This document shows, in pieces, positions 8,707 through 16,842 of a stretch of DNA of 26,428 nucleotides. Position 1 is the first letter of the stretch, and every line of letters begins with the position of its first letter. The stretch is from a virus, in IMG/VR virus record IMGVR_UViG_3300032182_000048, positions 1 to 26,428 of that record. One strand, given 5' to 3'. Under the pieces are notes generated by a model, which saw only the letters and a program-made list of their open reading frames with translations, was not told the origin of the DNA and made no database searches. The position numbers and the translations under genes were made by a program.

Positions 8707-8714
8707 TATTTATT
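8707..8714 (-). promoter_or_regulatory. T4-type late promoter candidate
   Basis: The minus strand reads AATAAATA about 21 nt upstream of the ATG at 8686. It overlaps the TAA stop (8710-8712) of the preceding M23 gene, the same arrangement as at 4944-4951. Confidence 0.55.
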
Positions 8715-11700
8715 GTAGTGCTAGACGAAGTTTCTCTAGCAACTTGACATCATATTCTTTGTTTGCAGTATAATACGTAGTCCCATCACCAGTAGGAGTC
8801 AACTCGATACCCATTTGTGCTGCCTGTGGTGGTGGAGCAGGCATGTTGTAGATAATCAAACTCTGCTCTTCCTCATCACCCTCCATGTTAATCATTTCGA
8901 TTCGCATGTCTTTTTGTACTGGTGCAGTAACTGCTGGTGTTGGTGCTGTTGTTGGTTTGGAAGGACGTGTTGATCTACGTGCAGCACGACGACGATCAGT
9001 TTCAGACATCGTTGGAGTTTCAATCTCCTCTGTTGTTGTAGTTTGTCCTGGTGCCTCGGTGTATGCCTCAAGTGCAGCATCTGGTTCTAGTGATAGACCA
9101 GCAACAGATCCAGATTGAATTTCTTCTAGTGTGTGAGCATTCTTTAATATACTTTGTCCTGGTGCATCTGGATCTACATGCACACCATTAACTAGAAGTT
9201 CAAAGTGTAGGTGTGGAGCACTACTGATGTCATCTGTGTCTGTGATGGTAGCAATCTTCTGCCCTGCCTTCACTTCATCACCCACCTGGACACCTGGATC
9301 TACGTGTAGATACTTGGTAACCATATTGTTAGCATGTTCAATAACAATACCCTGACTCATACCACCACTAGGTAAGTATCCTACAGGATACATCTGTGTT
9401 ACTTTACCTGGCATAGCAGCAACCACCTGCATACCTGGAGGTCCAATCAGATCTCTTCCCTTGTGGATCCTTCCGCCTGGTCTAGGAGCACCGAACTTAG
9501 CACCAGGATAGTCCTGTAGTTCTCCACCCTCCATGGGATTGACAATTTTACCCTTGAGATCGCCAACCACACCAGTGCCATCATAGTTTTCCACAGGCAT
9601 GAATGGGTTGCGTAGTGCTCTACCTAAAGAGTCAAGTACACCGACGAACTTACCTGCTGGATCAAATATTCTCATCAACTTATCGAAAGTATCGTTCTTG
9701 GGTAGTAGTTTCTCAATATCATCAGACGACATACCTTCAAATCTCTCTCCTCTAGGTAGTCCATCTTTAGTTGGGAATCTAACTGTTGGGATACTACCAC
9801 CAATAGTTGTGCTGGCAAGAGCGTTGGACATACCAAACTTTTTAATGAGTGGTGCTGCTTCTGAGTTGATGACTGGAGCAACGTCAGCACCTGCAGGACC
9901 CAGTGCTTGAACGAACTGCATCGTTGCACCTAGAATAGTTGCAGCAGTCTGCTGGAAAGGATCGTCTAACTTATCTTTGTCCACTACCAACTCTGTGCCG
10001 TGGAGCATAGCAGTGCCTGGTTTGGTGCCAGTTTCAAACTTATCAGCACCTGTTGCCATGTCGGCAGCACCAGCAGCAAGACTACCAGCAGCAAATCCAC
10101 CTAGGAGTGCGCCAATAGCACCACCGATGGCAGCACCAGGAATCGCTCCAACTCCACCAAACAGAGCACCGATGGCAGCACCAGCAGCAGCGCCTGCTTT
10201 ACCTCCTGCAGCGGCACCTGCGAGTCCCCCAGCGAGTCCAGCACCAGTACCTACCAATGCCTGTGTTTCGGTCTGTCCTGCTTTCTTTCTTTCGCTGTAC
10301 TCCCATGCTGATAGAGCAACATTGAGACCAGGAATTCTTGCGCTCCTCAATCCACGCAGTGCTCTAGTTGCACCACCTCTAGCACCAGATGACATAGCAA
10401 TGCGTTGAGCAGAGTTTGGCAATCTCCTCATAATAGAGTTGGTTGCCCTAGTTCTCAGTCGTCTTGGTAGACGTTGAACACGCCTGACTCTCTGGCGCAT
10501 TCTCCTCAATGCTTTAGGTGACTTCCTGTACAGTTTTCTCAGTAACTTGTTCCTAAAGAACCTAGTGATCCTACCTAATCTACCACCACCTTTCTTGGTG
10601 CCTCTTAAATCTTCTGGATCCTCGTATCCTGCTGCCTTTCTTTGATTCTCTAGATCACTTTCGGACTTCATGTCCTCAAGGTTCTCTCTTGCTTCATCCT
10701 GTGCTGCACTTTGAGCATTGAATGCCTGCATGAGAGCATCAAACTTAGACACGAGAATATCATCTTGCATCTTCAATGCTTCTAGTGATGCTAGGTTGAT
10801 ATCAATATTCTTCTGGAGCAATTCATTCTGCTCTACCAGAGACTTATTAACCTGCTCTAACTGACCACTGACTGCTGCCATGGTTTGAGTGATACTCTTC
10901 AGCAGTTGAGTGTTAGTAGTATATCCTTTCTTCTTAGGTTCTTCTTTCTTTCTCTTGTTAATTAAGTCAGCAAGTTCTTCCTGGATACTAGACGGCATGT
11001 CTGCCAGGATGTCATCAACCTCCTTAGACTGATCATCACTTACTTGTTCTTTCTCTGCCTCTTGCTTGACCTCTGCCAGTAGAGCATCCAGTTCTCCAGG
11101 TACTTCCTGCTCATCCTCTTCGGGTTCTTCACCTTCATCATTAATTATATTGAGGAGGTCATCTAAACCTTCGGGTTCTTCCTCAGGATCTTCCATGTCA
11201 AAGTCTTTATCTACACTGTCAATGTATAGATATGGATACTGTTCTTGTGTGCCAGGAACTGCAATAGTATCTCTAATCGCTTGTAGGATCTTCTTCCTAT
11301 GATCTAGGATATCACCATAAGAAATGCCAAGACTCTTCAACCATTCTAACGCTTCCTTCTGCTTAGCACTCCTCTCTTTACCAGTACCAGCGACAGGTTT
11401 TCCAGAGAAATAGATAGCGTGGTCAACATCACTTTCAAACTCAATCTCCCAGCGTCCTGCCTGCCCTTGAATGTAGTGTGCTGGTGGTAGTTTGAATTCA
11501 AAACTACCTTCTTTAAATTTCTTTGGTTGCTCTGGTTCTGGTTTGTTTAGTTCAGCAATACGTTGCTTGACTCTCTCCGCTTCCTCTGCTTTGAACCTCT
11601 CAAACCTCTCTTTATCTGCCTGGATAAGAGCATCCACAGCATCCATAATCTCATCTGATTTTTCCTCCAATGCATCCTCAAAGGATCGCATCGTATCATC

Positions 11701-12081
11701 AGCAAATTCTTTCTTGTCGTCTACAAACTTATCTTCTGGTTTGTAGACAGATACATTACCTTCTCTAGTATCTACAATAGCATTACTAAAACCATAGAAT
11801 TCTTTGAGAGTCTCTCTAATATTAATGATACCAGCAGTTTCTTTCCCTGTCAATAAGTCACTATCAATACCCTCGTAATAATTTGGTAGTTCCGAGGGCA
11901 ACAGCATCTCATCTTGAGAGGCAATGAATCTCTTTGCCTCTTCAATACCCTCAGTTGTCTGAGGGAAGATGCCATACGATAGAAGAGTAGACGTAGCAAT
12001 CTGTCTATAAGTCGCCTCTTTAGAAGGAGACTTATCAAATCTTCTTATCGCCTTGTCAGGAATACCCTCTAGATAACTCAT
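8710..12081 (-). CDS. Large tail protein with M23 peptidase; tape-measure candidate
   Basis: This encodes 1123 residues. The N-terminal half is acidic and helical, with a coiled-coil candidate around 385-470. Then comes an extremely Arg-rich patch (about 500-565). A glycine-zipper hydrophobic stretch follows (about 610-680, repeated GAAAG/GGAIGALLGG units). Next is a 'GTAMLHGTELVVDKD' tape-measure-like motif near 690. Residues about 845-975 are an M23 (LytM) metallopeptidase with both zinc motifs intact: H873-x3-D877 (HKGRD) and H957-L-H959. The tail is Pro/Thr-rich. Together, coiled coil, membrane-active zipper and cell-wall hydrolase suggest a tape-measure or penetration protein ejected ahead of DNA. 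Its ATG overlaps the gp53 stop (ATGA). T4 gp29 has no such peptidase, so orthology is not claimed. Confidence 0.7.
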   Translation of the reverse strand: MSYLEGIPDKAIRRFDKSPSKEATYRQIATSTLLSYGIFPQTTEGIEEAKRFIASQDEMLLPSELPNYYEGIDSDLLTGKETAGIINIRETLKEFYGFSNAIVDTREGNVSVYKPEDKFVDDKKEFADDTMRSFEDALEEKSDEIMDAVDALIQADKERFERFKAEEAERVKQRIAELNKPEPEQPKKFKEGSFEFKLPPAHYIQGQAGRWEIEFESDVDHAIYFSGKPVAGTGKERSAKQKEALEWLKSLGISYGDILDHRKKILQAIRDTIAVPGTQEQYPYLYIDSVDKDFDMEDPEEEPEGLDDLLNIINDEGEEPEEDEQEVPGELDALLAEVKQEAEKEQVSDDQSKEVDDILADMPSSIQEELADLINKRKKEEPKKKGYTTNTQLLKSITQTMAAVSGQLEQVNKSLVEQNELLQKNIDINLASLEALKMQDDILVSKFDALMQAFNAQSAAQDEARENLEDMKSESDLENQRKAAGYEDPEDLRGTKKGGGRLGRITRFFRNKLLRKLYRKSPKALRRMRQRVRRVQRLPRRLRTRATNSIMRRLPNSAQRIAMSSGARGGATRALRGLRSARIPGLNVALSAWEYSERKKAGQTETQALVGTGAGLAGGLAGAAAGGKAGAAAGAAIGALFGGVGAIPGAAIGGAIGALLGGFAAGSLAAGAADMATGADKFETGTKPGTAMLHGTELVVDKDKLDDPFQQTAATILGATMQFVQALGPAGADVAPVINSEAAPLIKKFGMSNALASTTIGGSIPTVRFPTKDGLPRGERFEGMSSDDIEKLLPKNDTFDKLMRIFDPAGKFVGVLDSLGRALRNPFMPVENYDGTGVVGDLKGKIVNPMEGGELQDYPGAKFGAPRPGGRIHKGRDLIGPPGMQVVAAMPGKVTQMYPVGYLPSGGMSQGIVIEHANNMVTKYLHVDPGVQVGDEVKAGQKIATITDTDDISSAPHLHFELLVNGVHVDPDAPGQSILKNAHTLEEIQSGSVAGLSLEPDAALEAYTEAPGQTTTTEEIETPTMSETDRRRAARRSTRPSKPTTAPTPAVTAPVQKDMRIEMINMEGDEEEQSLIIYNMPAPPPQAAQMGIELTPTGDGTTYYTANKEYDVKLLEKLRLALQ

Positions 12082-14667: not shown

Positions 14668-15104
14668 CAGACTTTGAGATGATCTTCGGTGAGAATTAAG
14701 AACTTCATCTGTCTATCTTCACAGTATTCTTTCGCTGCATCCCACTTCGCTTGATTCTTCATGAAAGTTAGGACTTCTCTCTTCCATGCAGCAGTCTTTC
14801 GCTTTGGTTTCTTGTTAGGTCCTGCCACCTGCTTCTTTGGTTTGATCTCAATGATATACTTCTGTATTTGATGTGATTTGTTCTTTACTTTGATGTAAAA
14901 ATCAGGATAATATCTATGTGCTCTCCCATCAGTAGGACATCTGTAAGGAACAATGACTTCCTCACTACCCCACTCAATAATACTGTCTGTAGAGTCACAA
15001 AATAACATGAACTTTCGTTCCCACAATGACCTATAAATTATGCGTGTTGGATTTCCTCTATACTTCTGCGGATGCTTCGGTTTGTAGATTCCAGAGTACG
15101 CCAT
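14667..15104 (-). CDS. gp4: Head completion protein gp4 (PD-(D/E)XK nuclease fold)
   Basis: This encodes 145 residues from the ATG at 15104 (MAYSGIYKPKHPQKY), about the size of T4 gp4 (150). The frame is open seven codons further, to a GTG at 15125. The catalytic pattern of a PD-(D/E)XK/TnsA-like nuclease is complete: E29 in 'SLWERKF', PD68 in 'YYPDFYIKV' and E86-I-K88 in 'YIIEIKPKK'. gp4 acts on filled heads before tail joining. The lysine-rich C-terminal half would suit DNA binding. There is no clear Shine-Dalgarno. A minus-strand TCTAAATA box at 15129-15136 is a plausible late promoter, giving a leader of about 18 nt. Confidence 0.85.
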   Translation of the reverse strand: MAYSGIYKPKHPQKYRGNPTRIIYRSLWERKFMLFCDSTDSIIEWGSEEVIVPYRCPTDGRAHRYYPDFYIKVKNKSHQIQKYIIEIKPKKQVAGPNKKPKRKTAAWKREVLTFMKNQAKWDAAKEYCEDRQMKFLILTEDHLKV

Positions 15105-15109
15105 AAATA
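15102..15109 (+). promoter_or_regulatory. T4-type late promoter, rightward
   Basis: The plus strand reads CATAAATA (consensus TATAAATA) 28 nt upstream of the GTG start at 15137. The box lies across the start codon of the divergent gp4 gene (15102-15104), so the two transcription units interlock. Confidence 0.6.
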
Positions 15110-15128
15110 AAGTATAACCCATCACTAA

Positions 15129-15136: not shown

Positions 15137-15919
15137 GTGCCTAATCCATTAGATCCTGCGGGTCTCATTCCAGATGATATTGAGTTACCTAAAGGGAGAT
15201 CGGGTTCGATCTCGAACTTTTTGGCTGCCGTTAGTGCCAATGGCGGCATGTCCATGTCAAATGGATATGATGTGCAATTCTATTTTGATTCTTCATCAAA
15301 CGCTACTCTAAAGAACTCTTTTAGTAAGTTTGATATTGATGTATCAGATTTTACCACAGCAAATAAACCAGGGTCGCTGATTAATCTGTTTTGTGATGAG
15401 GCACAGTTACCAAGTCTACAATTTGCCACTGGTAACGTCAACGGAAGATATACAGGACGTGGAAATAACTTCTACCCCCATACTAAGTTAATTACAGACT
15501 TCAGTTTGAGTTGGATGCTTGATGCCAACATGTCACCATACAAATTCTTAGTTACTTGGTTTAATTTCATTCGTGGTGGTGGAACTCCTCTAGAACGTAC
15601 AAATAATGATTCTGTTCCAACTATCAATGAATTGTTCCACCTAAAAGATAGTTCTAACTTCTCTACACAAAATAGAAGTTACAGAATGGCATATCCTAAG
15701 GATTATCAAGCAAATCTACGCATTGCTAAGACAGAAAGAGGAGCAAATGCTGCTAATGGTAGATCTCCGCTAGTGTGGGCATTCACTGGTGTATATCCTT
15801 ACTCTATTGACGCTGTTCCTCTCTCCTACGGCAGTTCGCAGGTCACCAGAGTCACCGCTAACTTCTACTACGACACGCTAACCAGTTCCTTTGCAGATAT
15901 TCGTAACAAAAGGGGATAA
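15137..15919 (+). CDS. Tail-tube-fold protein (gp19/gp54 type)
   Basis: This encodes 260 residues from a GTG start (no in-frame ATG before residue 38). The body is beta-rich: 'NGYDVQFYFDSS', 'LINLFCDEAQLPSLQFATGN', 'KLITDFSLSWMLDANMSPYKFLVTWF'. It ends with 'WAFTGVYPYSIDAVPLSYGSSQVTRVTANFYYDTL', the typical end of phage tube proteins of the gp19/gp54 superfamily. It lies upstream of gp26 and diverges from the gp4-gp48-gp53 block. A baseplate tail-tube initiator role like T4 gp54 (320 residues) is most likely. The alternative is a tube-like neck or tail terminator subunit. A late promoter precedes it. Confidence 0.65.
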   Translation: MPNPLDPAGLIPDDIELPKGRSGSISNFLAAVSANGGMSMSNGYDVQFYFDSSSNATLKNSFSKFDIDVSDFTTANKPGSLINLFCDEAQLPSLQFATGNVNGRYTGRGNNFYPHTKLITDFSLSWMLDANMSPYKFLVTWFNFIRGGGTPLERTNNDSVPTINELFHLKDSSNFSTQNRSYRMAYPKDYQANLRIAKTERGANAANGRSPLVWAFTGVYPYSIDAVPLSYGSSQVTRVTANFYYDTLTSSFADIRNKRG

Positions 15920-15946: not shown

Positions 15947-16660
15947 ATGGCGTTACCTAAAGTTGGGTATCCAACCTATGAGTTGGATCTTCCTTCTACT
16001 GGGAAGAAAATTAAGTATAGACCTTTTGTCGTAAAAGAAGAAAAGGTACTATTACTTGCCCTGGAAGGAGAAAATGAAGATGAGATCAAAATTGCAGTAA
16101 AAGATCTCATCAAGAACTGCGTTTTAAGCAGAATTAAGGTCGATGAACTCCCATCGTTCGATTTGGAGTATATTTTCCTCAAAATCCGTGCTGCCTCTGT
16201 TGGTGAAGTGGTGAATATGACCATTACCTGTAGAGATGACGGAAAAACCCAAGTTGAGCATAATATTGACCTCAACCAACTCCAGGTAACCAAACCAGAG
16301 GGTCATTCTAGCAAAATCATGCTAAATGACACTACAGGCATGATTATGAAGTATCCTAGCATGGATAGATTTGTCGAAAACGAGTTTTTGAACAAAGCAA
16401 TCAAAACTGACGATGTTTTCCAGTTTATTGCCGATTCGATCGATCAGATCTTTGACGAAGAATCTGTATATGACTCTTCTACGACTACAAAGAAGGAAAA
16501 ACTAGAATTCGTCGAAAGTCTCACTGCAAAGCAATTTGAGAGCATTCAGAAGTTCTACGAAACCATGCCAAAACTGCAATACACCTTCACAGTCACAAAT
16601 CCCAATACTGGGGTCGAATCTGAATATGTCATTGAGGGGATGCAGAATTTTTTCGCATAA
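15947..16660 (+). CDS. gp26: Baseplate hub protein / assembly factor gp26
   Basis: This encodes 237 residues (T4 gp26 is 208). The conserved N-terminal segment is 'YRPFVVKEEKVLLLALEG', followed by a 'NCVLSRIKVDELPSFDLEYIFLKIRAASVGEVV' block, both hallmarks of the T4 gp26 family needed for baseplate hub assembly. The C-terminus holds 'LEFVESLTAKQFESIQKFYETMPKLQYTFTV' and ends MQNFFA. The frame ends in a TAATG overlap with a 60-residue ORF. The T run encoding the last Phe-Phe forms a canonical -1 slippery heptamer, so a longer gp26 fusion of about 298 residues may also be made. A late promoter lies directly upstream. Confidence 0.82.
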   Translation: MALPKVGYPTYELDLPSTGKKIKYRPFVVKEEKVLLLALEGENEDEIKIAVKDLIKNCVLSRIKVDELPSFDLEYIFLKIRAASVGEVVNMTITCRDDGKTQVEHNIDLNQLQVTKPEGHSSKIMLNDTTGMIMKYPSMDRFVENEFLNKAIKTDDVFQFIADSIDQIFDEESVYDSSTTTKKEKLEFVESLTAKQFESIQKFYETMPKLQYTFTVTNPNTGVESEYVIEGMQNFFA

Positions 16661-16686
16661 TGGTCTTCCAGAACAGTCTGGAGGGC
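16648..16686 (+). promoter_or_regulatory. Putative -1 programmed ribosomal frameshift signal
   Basis: In the gp26 frame the bases 16648-16654 read T TTT TTC, a canonical X XXY YYZ slippery heptamer. An 8-nt spacer (16655-16662) follows. Then comes a hairpin with a 10-bp stem (16663-16672 with 16677-16686; eight Watson-Crick and two G-U pairs) and an ACAG loop. A -1 slip here reads Arg-Ile through the gp26 stop and enters the downstream 60-residue ORF in frame. Geometry matches known tail-assembly-chaperone frameshift sites; function is inferred. Confidence 0.6.
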
Positions 16687-16842
16687 TATTATAAGACAAA
16701 CTTCGCTTTGATGCAATACCACAAATACTCACTTACTGAGATTGAGGCAATGATGCCGTGGGAGCGTGAAGTTTACGTTGCTCTGCTCAAACAGCATATT
16801 CAAGAGGAGAAGCAGAAGGCAGAAGCAGCGGCAGCCCAATAA
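16660..16842 (+). CDS. 60-residue ORF, likely frameshift extension of gp26
   Basis: The frame starts at ATG 16660, overlapping the gp26 stop (TAATG). The sequence 'LEGYYKTNFALMQYHKYSLTEIEAMMPWEREVYVALLKQHIQEEKQKAEAA' has the 'SLTEIE.M.PWER..Y..LL' pattern typical of the downstream partner of tail assembly chaperone pairs (lambda T-like position), with an acidic/Ala-rich helical tail. It lies in the -1 frame relative to gp26. It could be made separately by stop-start coupling, as a gp26 fusion by frameshifting, or both. In T4 the hub-assembly factor gp51 is a separate, much longer protein, so I do not assign that name. Confidence 0.7.
   Translation: MVFQNSLEGYYKTNFALMQYHKYSLTEIEAMMPWEREVYVALLKQHIQEEKQKAEAAAAQ

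Follow-up and report, generated by a model that had tools for sequence, protein, structure and literature searches.

Tail chaperones made in a short and a long form by ribosomal slipping are known from many tailed viruses. In phage lambda the slip site is G GGA AAG. The lambda G/GT pair (Xu, Hendrix & Duda 2004) resembles the locus analysed here in a slip close to the 3' end of the short chaperone gene, a -1 shift, a start-less C-terminal extension and a long form with a T-like tail; several relatives of this locus also share its place between the tube and tape measure genes. It differs in that gp26 belongs to another family by sequence and that the present locus has a poly-T slip site and a conserved stimulatory hairpin. 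In the window, as the whole analysed stretch of 26,428 nt of DNA from a marine cyanobacterial virus is called here, the next gene downstream of gp26 and its tail is moreover ssb on the other strand instead of the tape measure gene. The tail assembly chaperones (TACs) of Vandenendeviridae and Andersonviridae are alike in a poly-T -1 slip at the end of TAC-N and in its family-wide conservation, and differ in the motif, GTTTTT, and in phage group (PMC12846349).

PMC3004832 names T4 gp26 and gp51 as chaperones of hub assembly, gp51 being required and absent from the particle. Both belong to family PF12322, T4 gp26 as the short and T4 gp51 as the long form. T4 uses two separate genes without slipping, whereas the window has a single gene with a predicted -1 frameshift. 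The chaperone genes of T4-like phages were named by Vladimirov, Gautam & Davidson 2022 (Virology 566:9-15), as cited in passages of PMC10885494 and PMC12846349; the former refers to this work on the occurrence of a short and a long copy in certain T4-like phages, and the latter credits it with poly-T slip sites in T4-like TAC-N genes. In view of these citations, the sequence-only reading was probably wrong to regard frameshifting as undescribed for the T4 gp26 group. Judging from the citing papers, a frameshifted T4-like chaperone is probably not new in kind and was already reported for that group, and the build of T4 gp51, gp26 family plus tail, is probably covered there as well.

For the window, comparison with relatives argues with high confidence that gp26 and the 60-residue open reading frame (ORF) behind it are one gene read in two ways, encoding a short chaperone and a -1-frameshifted long one.

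The gp26 locus in the window

Read directly, the junction is GGG ATG CAG AAT TTT TTC GCA TAA TGG TCT. It contains T TTT TTC in the gp26 frame, as the sequence-only reading had described, followed by one Ala codon and the stop (Table 1). The 60-aa ORF lies in the -1 frame relative to gp26. Conceptual slipping joined 236 gp26 residues, Arg-Ile and the 60 ORF residues, and the previously estimated fusion of about 298 residues thus came to exactly that length. The unshifted C-terminus of gp26 reads ...EGMQNFFA and the shifted junction ...EGMQNFFR. The predicted tryptic junction peptide is LQYTFTVTNPNTGVESEYVIEGMQNFFR, followed by IMVFQNSLEGYYK, and a free tail initiated separately at Met would have the N-terminus MVFQNSLEGYYK. 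No Shine-Dalgarno-like motif was found upstream of the ATG of the 60-aa ORF, and Pfam matches of this ORF were noise only.

Table 1. Positions of the proposed gp26 frameshift features in the window.
Feature	Position	Strand	Remarks
Tail tube / tube initiator gene (phrog_45)	15137..15919	+	Directly 5' of gp26; position expected in a tube-TAC-tape measure module
gp26 CDS, putative short TAC form (TAC-N)	15947..16660	+	237 aa; PF12322 / phrog_150; fold match to TACs
Slippery heptamer T TTT TTC (P/A-site Phe-Phe codons)	16648..16654	+	Last base would be read twice after a -1 slip
-1 frame extension, gp51-type tail (phrog_634)	16654..16842	+	62 codons + stop; with gp26, predicted 298-aa long form (TAC-NC)
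8-nt spacer, heptamer to upper 10-bp stem	16655..16662	+	Modal spacer in relatives 7 nt
3' hairpin, putatively stimulatory	16657..16692	+	16-bp stem 16657-16672/16677-16692; loop ACAG 16673-16676; z -5.25
gp26 zero-frame stop TAA	16658..16660	+	TAG in most relatives
ATG of separately annotatable 60-aa ORF (16660-16842)	16660..16662	+	TAATG overlap; absent in most relatives

Seven copies of the heptamer were observed in the window and 6.6 were expected, and its count was rejected as evidence of frameshifting. The -1 relation was rejected likewise, as it follows automatically from the TAATG overlap. Because both features are accounted for in this way, relatives were compared. What goes beyond chance is the hairpin and, above all, the joint conservation of heptamer, -1 tail and hairpin in relatives.

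Two other explanations were considered. One is translational coupling, in which ribosomes ending at TAA re-initiate at the ATG of TAATG and make a separate 60-residue gp51, with the poly-T incidental; the overlap accounts for the frame, and recurs in Sf-FR1, where two genes are annotated, and as TAATG or TGATG in Va3, Cr30 and phiM19. The other takes the genes to be two independent ones whose junction looks like a frameshift signal by chance, with the hairpin as a regulator or terminator, in keeping with the chance frequency of the heptamer taken alone and with the separate annotation of the tail in S-RSM4, S-PM2 and HTVC008M.

Slip site and start-less tail in relatives

The comparison comprised 188 sequences (loci and the window) with 146 distinct gp26 junctions, which include kin contigs and two large cyanophage clades and are not independent. 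Scans of viral contigs with the gp26 sequences of Cr30 and Va3 returned only two relatives each. TTTTTTC or TTTTTTT was present at most two codons from the gp26 stop in 143 of the 146 junctions; L062, Det7 and the record of Stenotrophomonas phage IME-SM1 were the three without it. The first of these was rejected as a true absence: its gp26 match (L062:2001-2710) has a length that is not a multiple of three, which marks a contig frame error within gp26. The IME-SM1 record is one base short in the slip run, and a +1/-2 shift was rejected for it, 14 relatives' records being one base longer over the same stretch; its relative Mendera (L227) has TTTTTTC with the tail in -1. The missing T (L092:3700-3730), which alters the annotated gp26 C-terminus, is probably a sequencing or assembly error at a homopolymer. 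In Det7-like Ackermannviridae (L090, L188-L202) the gp51-type tail is start-less and in the -1 frame behind GAG/GAA ATT TTC ATT TAA, which holds no canonical heptamer and resembles a site for a single-tRNA slip on TTTTC. A permanent in-frame fusion, suspected from the annotation of ACG-2014d, was rejected as well, the junction there being an ordinary TTTTTTC one.

The slip codons hardly vary. The first Phe codon is TTT in 137/137 junctions and the second TTC in 135/137, and the preceding codon ends in T in all 137 while its residue varies (Ser, Asn, Ala, Asp, Gly). Unlike these, other conserved Phe columns of gp26 mix TTT and TTC (0.8–0.9 bits). The slip codons are thus frozen against synonymous change. 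A T6–T7 run on the site in nearly all junctions would also suit transcriptional slippage, in which RNA polymerase gains or loses a base at T6 and a fraction of the mRNAs would carry gp26 and tail in one frame. A run of six T is short for slippage by the polymerase, however, and it stays TTTTTTC in 135/137 junctions and is not lengthened to T7 or more. This explanation is regarded as highly improbable.

The tail was examined for possible starts. Relatives usually read TTT TTC GCA TAG CAC TCT TCC, the TAA TGG of the window standing in place of TAG CAC, and 88 of the 143 junctions have no ATG, GTG or TTG among the first five tail codons. The other 55 have some early start, none of them with a Shine-Dalgarno-like motif (0/55). 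Selection was estimated for the 33 junctions whose first 18 tail codons include no start codon at all. Right after the gp26 stop, pN/pS was 0.24 in the -1 frame versus 1.98 and 1.34 in the two others, and the -1 frame of these junctions was never interrupted by a stop codon there. The tail protein is thus under purifying selection from immediately after the gp26 stop. Since these stretches are start-less and under purifying selection, and early starts lack a Shine-Dalgarno-like motif, the tail residues ahead of the first possible start could hardly be produced except by a shift.

Coupling would leave the many start-less junctions, the selection on residues ahead of any start and the frozen heptamer codons unexplained, and it does not fit T4 gp51, a single continuous chain across the junction; as an account of the locus it is very unlikely. 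In the window itself, separate, coupled synthesis of the tail from the ATG at TAATG is possible, and the window's own lineage might combine slipping and coupling. Two independent genes are contradicted by the conservation over 143 junctions, the frozen codons and the -1-frame selection. In S-RSM4 (L084:2549) and HTVC008M (L086:2534), the annotations that separate the tail let gp51 begin at an ATG inside it, which leaves conserved residues out. We consider this the least credible of the explanations. The tail matched 543 records and is unannotated in many other cyanophage records.

The hairpin downstream of the slip site

Folding of an 81-nt region of the window gave -27.1 kcal/mol (z -5.25), and none of 200 shuffles was as stable. 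The 10-bp hairpin with ACAG loop at 16663-16686 and 8-nt spacer, noted earlier from the sequence, is present, but it is only the top of an uninterrupted 16-bp stem, whose basal part contains the gp26 stop codon. A ribosome bound at the heptamer would melt the base of this stem and leave roughly 10 bp at the 8-nt spacer.

Across the 143 junctions the region after the slip site was compared with -1-frame synonymous recodings, giving a mean z of -2.5 with 69% of junctions below -2; about 17% had no hairpin clearly stronger than expected. The relatives' hairpins mostly lie 5–8 nt 3' of the slip site. This conserved position suits ribosomal pausing and not polymerase slippage at the run. The hairpin is not terminator-like either, since no T-run follows it on the 3' side.

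Three stem solutions were found at similar spacing: CUCUUCC/GGAAGGG, GUAUGGCUCA/UGAGUCAUAC and GRUYC/GRAYC. In the window clade, both sides had changed at five stem pairs (e.g. C-G to G-C in 10/48). A second clade has an unrelated stem at nearly the same position (U-A to G-C in 8/18), and a third has a short stem with three doubly changed pairs. By covariation score, all three stem classes exceeded every shuffled and every slid control; by number of doubly changed pairs, the first two classes were less clearly separated from the controls. On this comparative evidence the hairpin is selected as a structure and is absent in a minority of junctions. With the frozen codons and the mostly start-less tail, these compensatory changes bear out the proposed -1 frameshift by the comparison of heptamer and stem across relatives that the sequence-only reading had suggested.

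One stem compensation (GCU/GCG) coincides with an amino-acid change in the tail (Glu/Ala), and on this account the RNA structure would constrain the protein. The chances appear evenly balanced for a wider proposal, that the cyanomyovirus frameshift is driven by a hairpin whose position was kept while its stem was swapped wholesale between clades, with at least three unrelated solutions and the RNA constraining the protein, and that the window lineage lengthened its stem to 16 bp and acquired an ATG possibly allowing dual expression. No description of the cyanophage hairpin was found in the literature searched, which is weak evidence of novelty; a stimulatory hairpin that covaries and has arrived at several unrelated stems is possibly new.

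Chaperone fold, gene order and the T4 gene pair

An AlphaFold2 model of gp26 (pLDDT 85) gave HK97 2OB9 (Z 8.0, residues 1-85), 3FGX (7.6) and 3KLU (7.5) as its best PDB folds, the next being 4.6; the match is limited to gp26 residues ~1-94 and these Z values are near the level reachable by unrelated models. Foldseek returned 2OB9 with probability 0.95 and E 0.24. 3FGX and 3KLU are tail assembly chaperones (PMC9603447). The HK97 TAC (2OB9), YqbN (3KLU) and rbstp2171 (3FGX) are like gp26 in the fold of this N-terminal part and differ from it in that gp26 has ~140 additional residues C-terminal to the domain; identity is 5–12%. A fold search with a T4-like gp51 model gave no clear match and did not return TACs, and searching PDB sequences with a profile of gp26 yielded nothing useful.

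The tail falls into phrog_634, the gp51 family annotated as 'baseplate hub assembly catalyst', and even the profile of phrog_150 extends into it. T4 gp51 (249 aa) consists of a gp26-family domain (PF12322, E 3.9e-52) and then the same tail, and its alignment with the conceptual cyanophage fusion (probability 99.4, E 8.9e-21) has no gap where the slip would occur. Two PF12322 genes were found in T4, gp26 (short) and gp51 (long), and one each in 11 other phages searched whole. A TTTTTT slip site is present in ten of these, for IME-SM1 as judged from its relatives, and the eleventh, Det7, has a -1 tail with another motif. T4 genes 51 (L083:4480-5229) and 26 (L083:3803-4429) are adjacent and divergent, a layout consistent with a duplication that replaced frameshifting. 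As T4 has two genes and its relatives one slipping gene, there would be two routes to the same short/long pair with a common N-terminal domain, realised in T4 as gp26/gp51 and predicted from the frameshift in relatives.

Conservation of slip site, tail and hairpin, colinearity with T4 gp51 and the TAC fold together indicate that gp26 is very probably TAC-N and gp26-51 the TAC-NC made by programmed -1 frameshifting. The earlier idea of a chaperone pair gains support from this fold, from gene order in relatives (tube, gp26, tail, a small ORF and tape measure in HTVC008M, and this order from gp26 onwards in Cr30) and from T4 gp51 as the in-frame counterpart of the fusion.

Most ribosomes would translate gp26, stop at TAA and release the short chaperone. 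A fraction would be held up on T TTT TTC by the hairpin ahead; the P- and A-site tRNA-Phe would re-pair one base back on TTT TTT, and these ribosomes would then read ...Phe-Phe-Arg-Ile-Met-Val-Phe... in the -1 frame to give the long chaperone. We infer this slipping in the cell and its rate. How the pair would act as chaperones of tape measure and tube is proposed from its likeness to lambda G/GT: during tail/hub assembly the tape measure protein would be coated by the short form and connected to tail tube subunits by the long one.

On this interpretation cyanophage gp26 and gp51 ('baseplate hub subunit' and 'hub assembly catalyst'), now annotated as two genes or with gp51 overlooked entirely, would be one frameshifted chaperone gene. 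It would also explain the gp26-plus-tail appearance of T4 gp51, the same pair coming from two genes in T4 or from ribosomal slipping in relatives. Hundreds of phage records have this arrangement, and the pair offers a natural system for comparing slipping with gene duplication in setting a protein ratio.

Other genes of the window were also noted. On the minus strand, 8710-12081 encodes a protein of 1123 residues that has an M23 peptidase domain and a hydrophobic stretch rich in Gly and Ala, and it weakly matched a tape measure family. S-RSM4 has an M23-like gene immediately 3' of gp51. The window protein is a candidate tape measure/hub protein relocated away from gp26-51 in this phage. At 14670-15125, also on the minus strand, a gp4 head-closure protein is encoded, which matched phage endonuclease families too (phrog_15427, E 3.8e-6).
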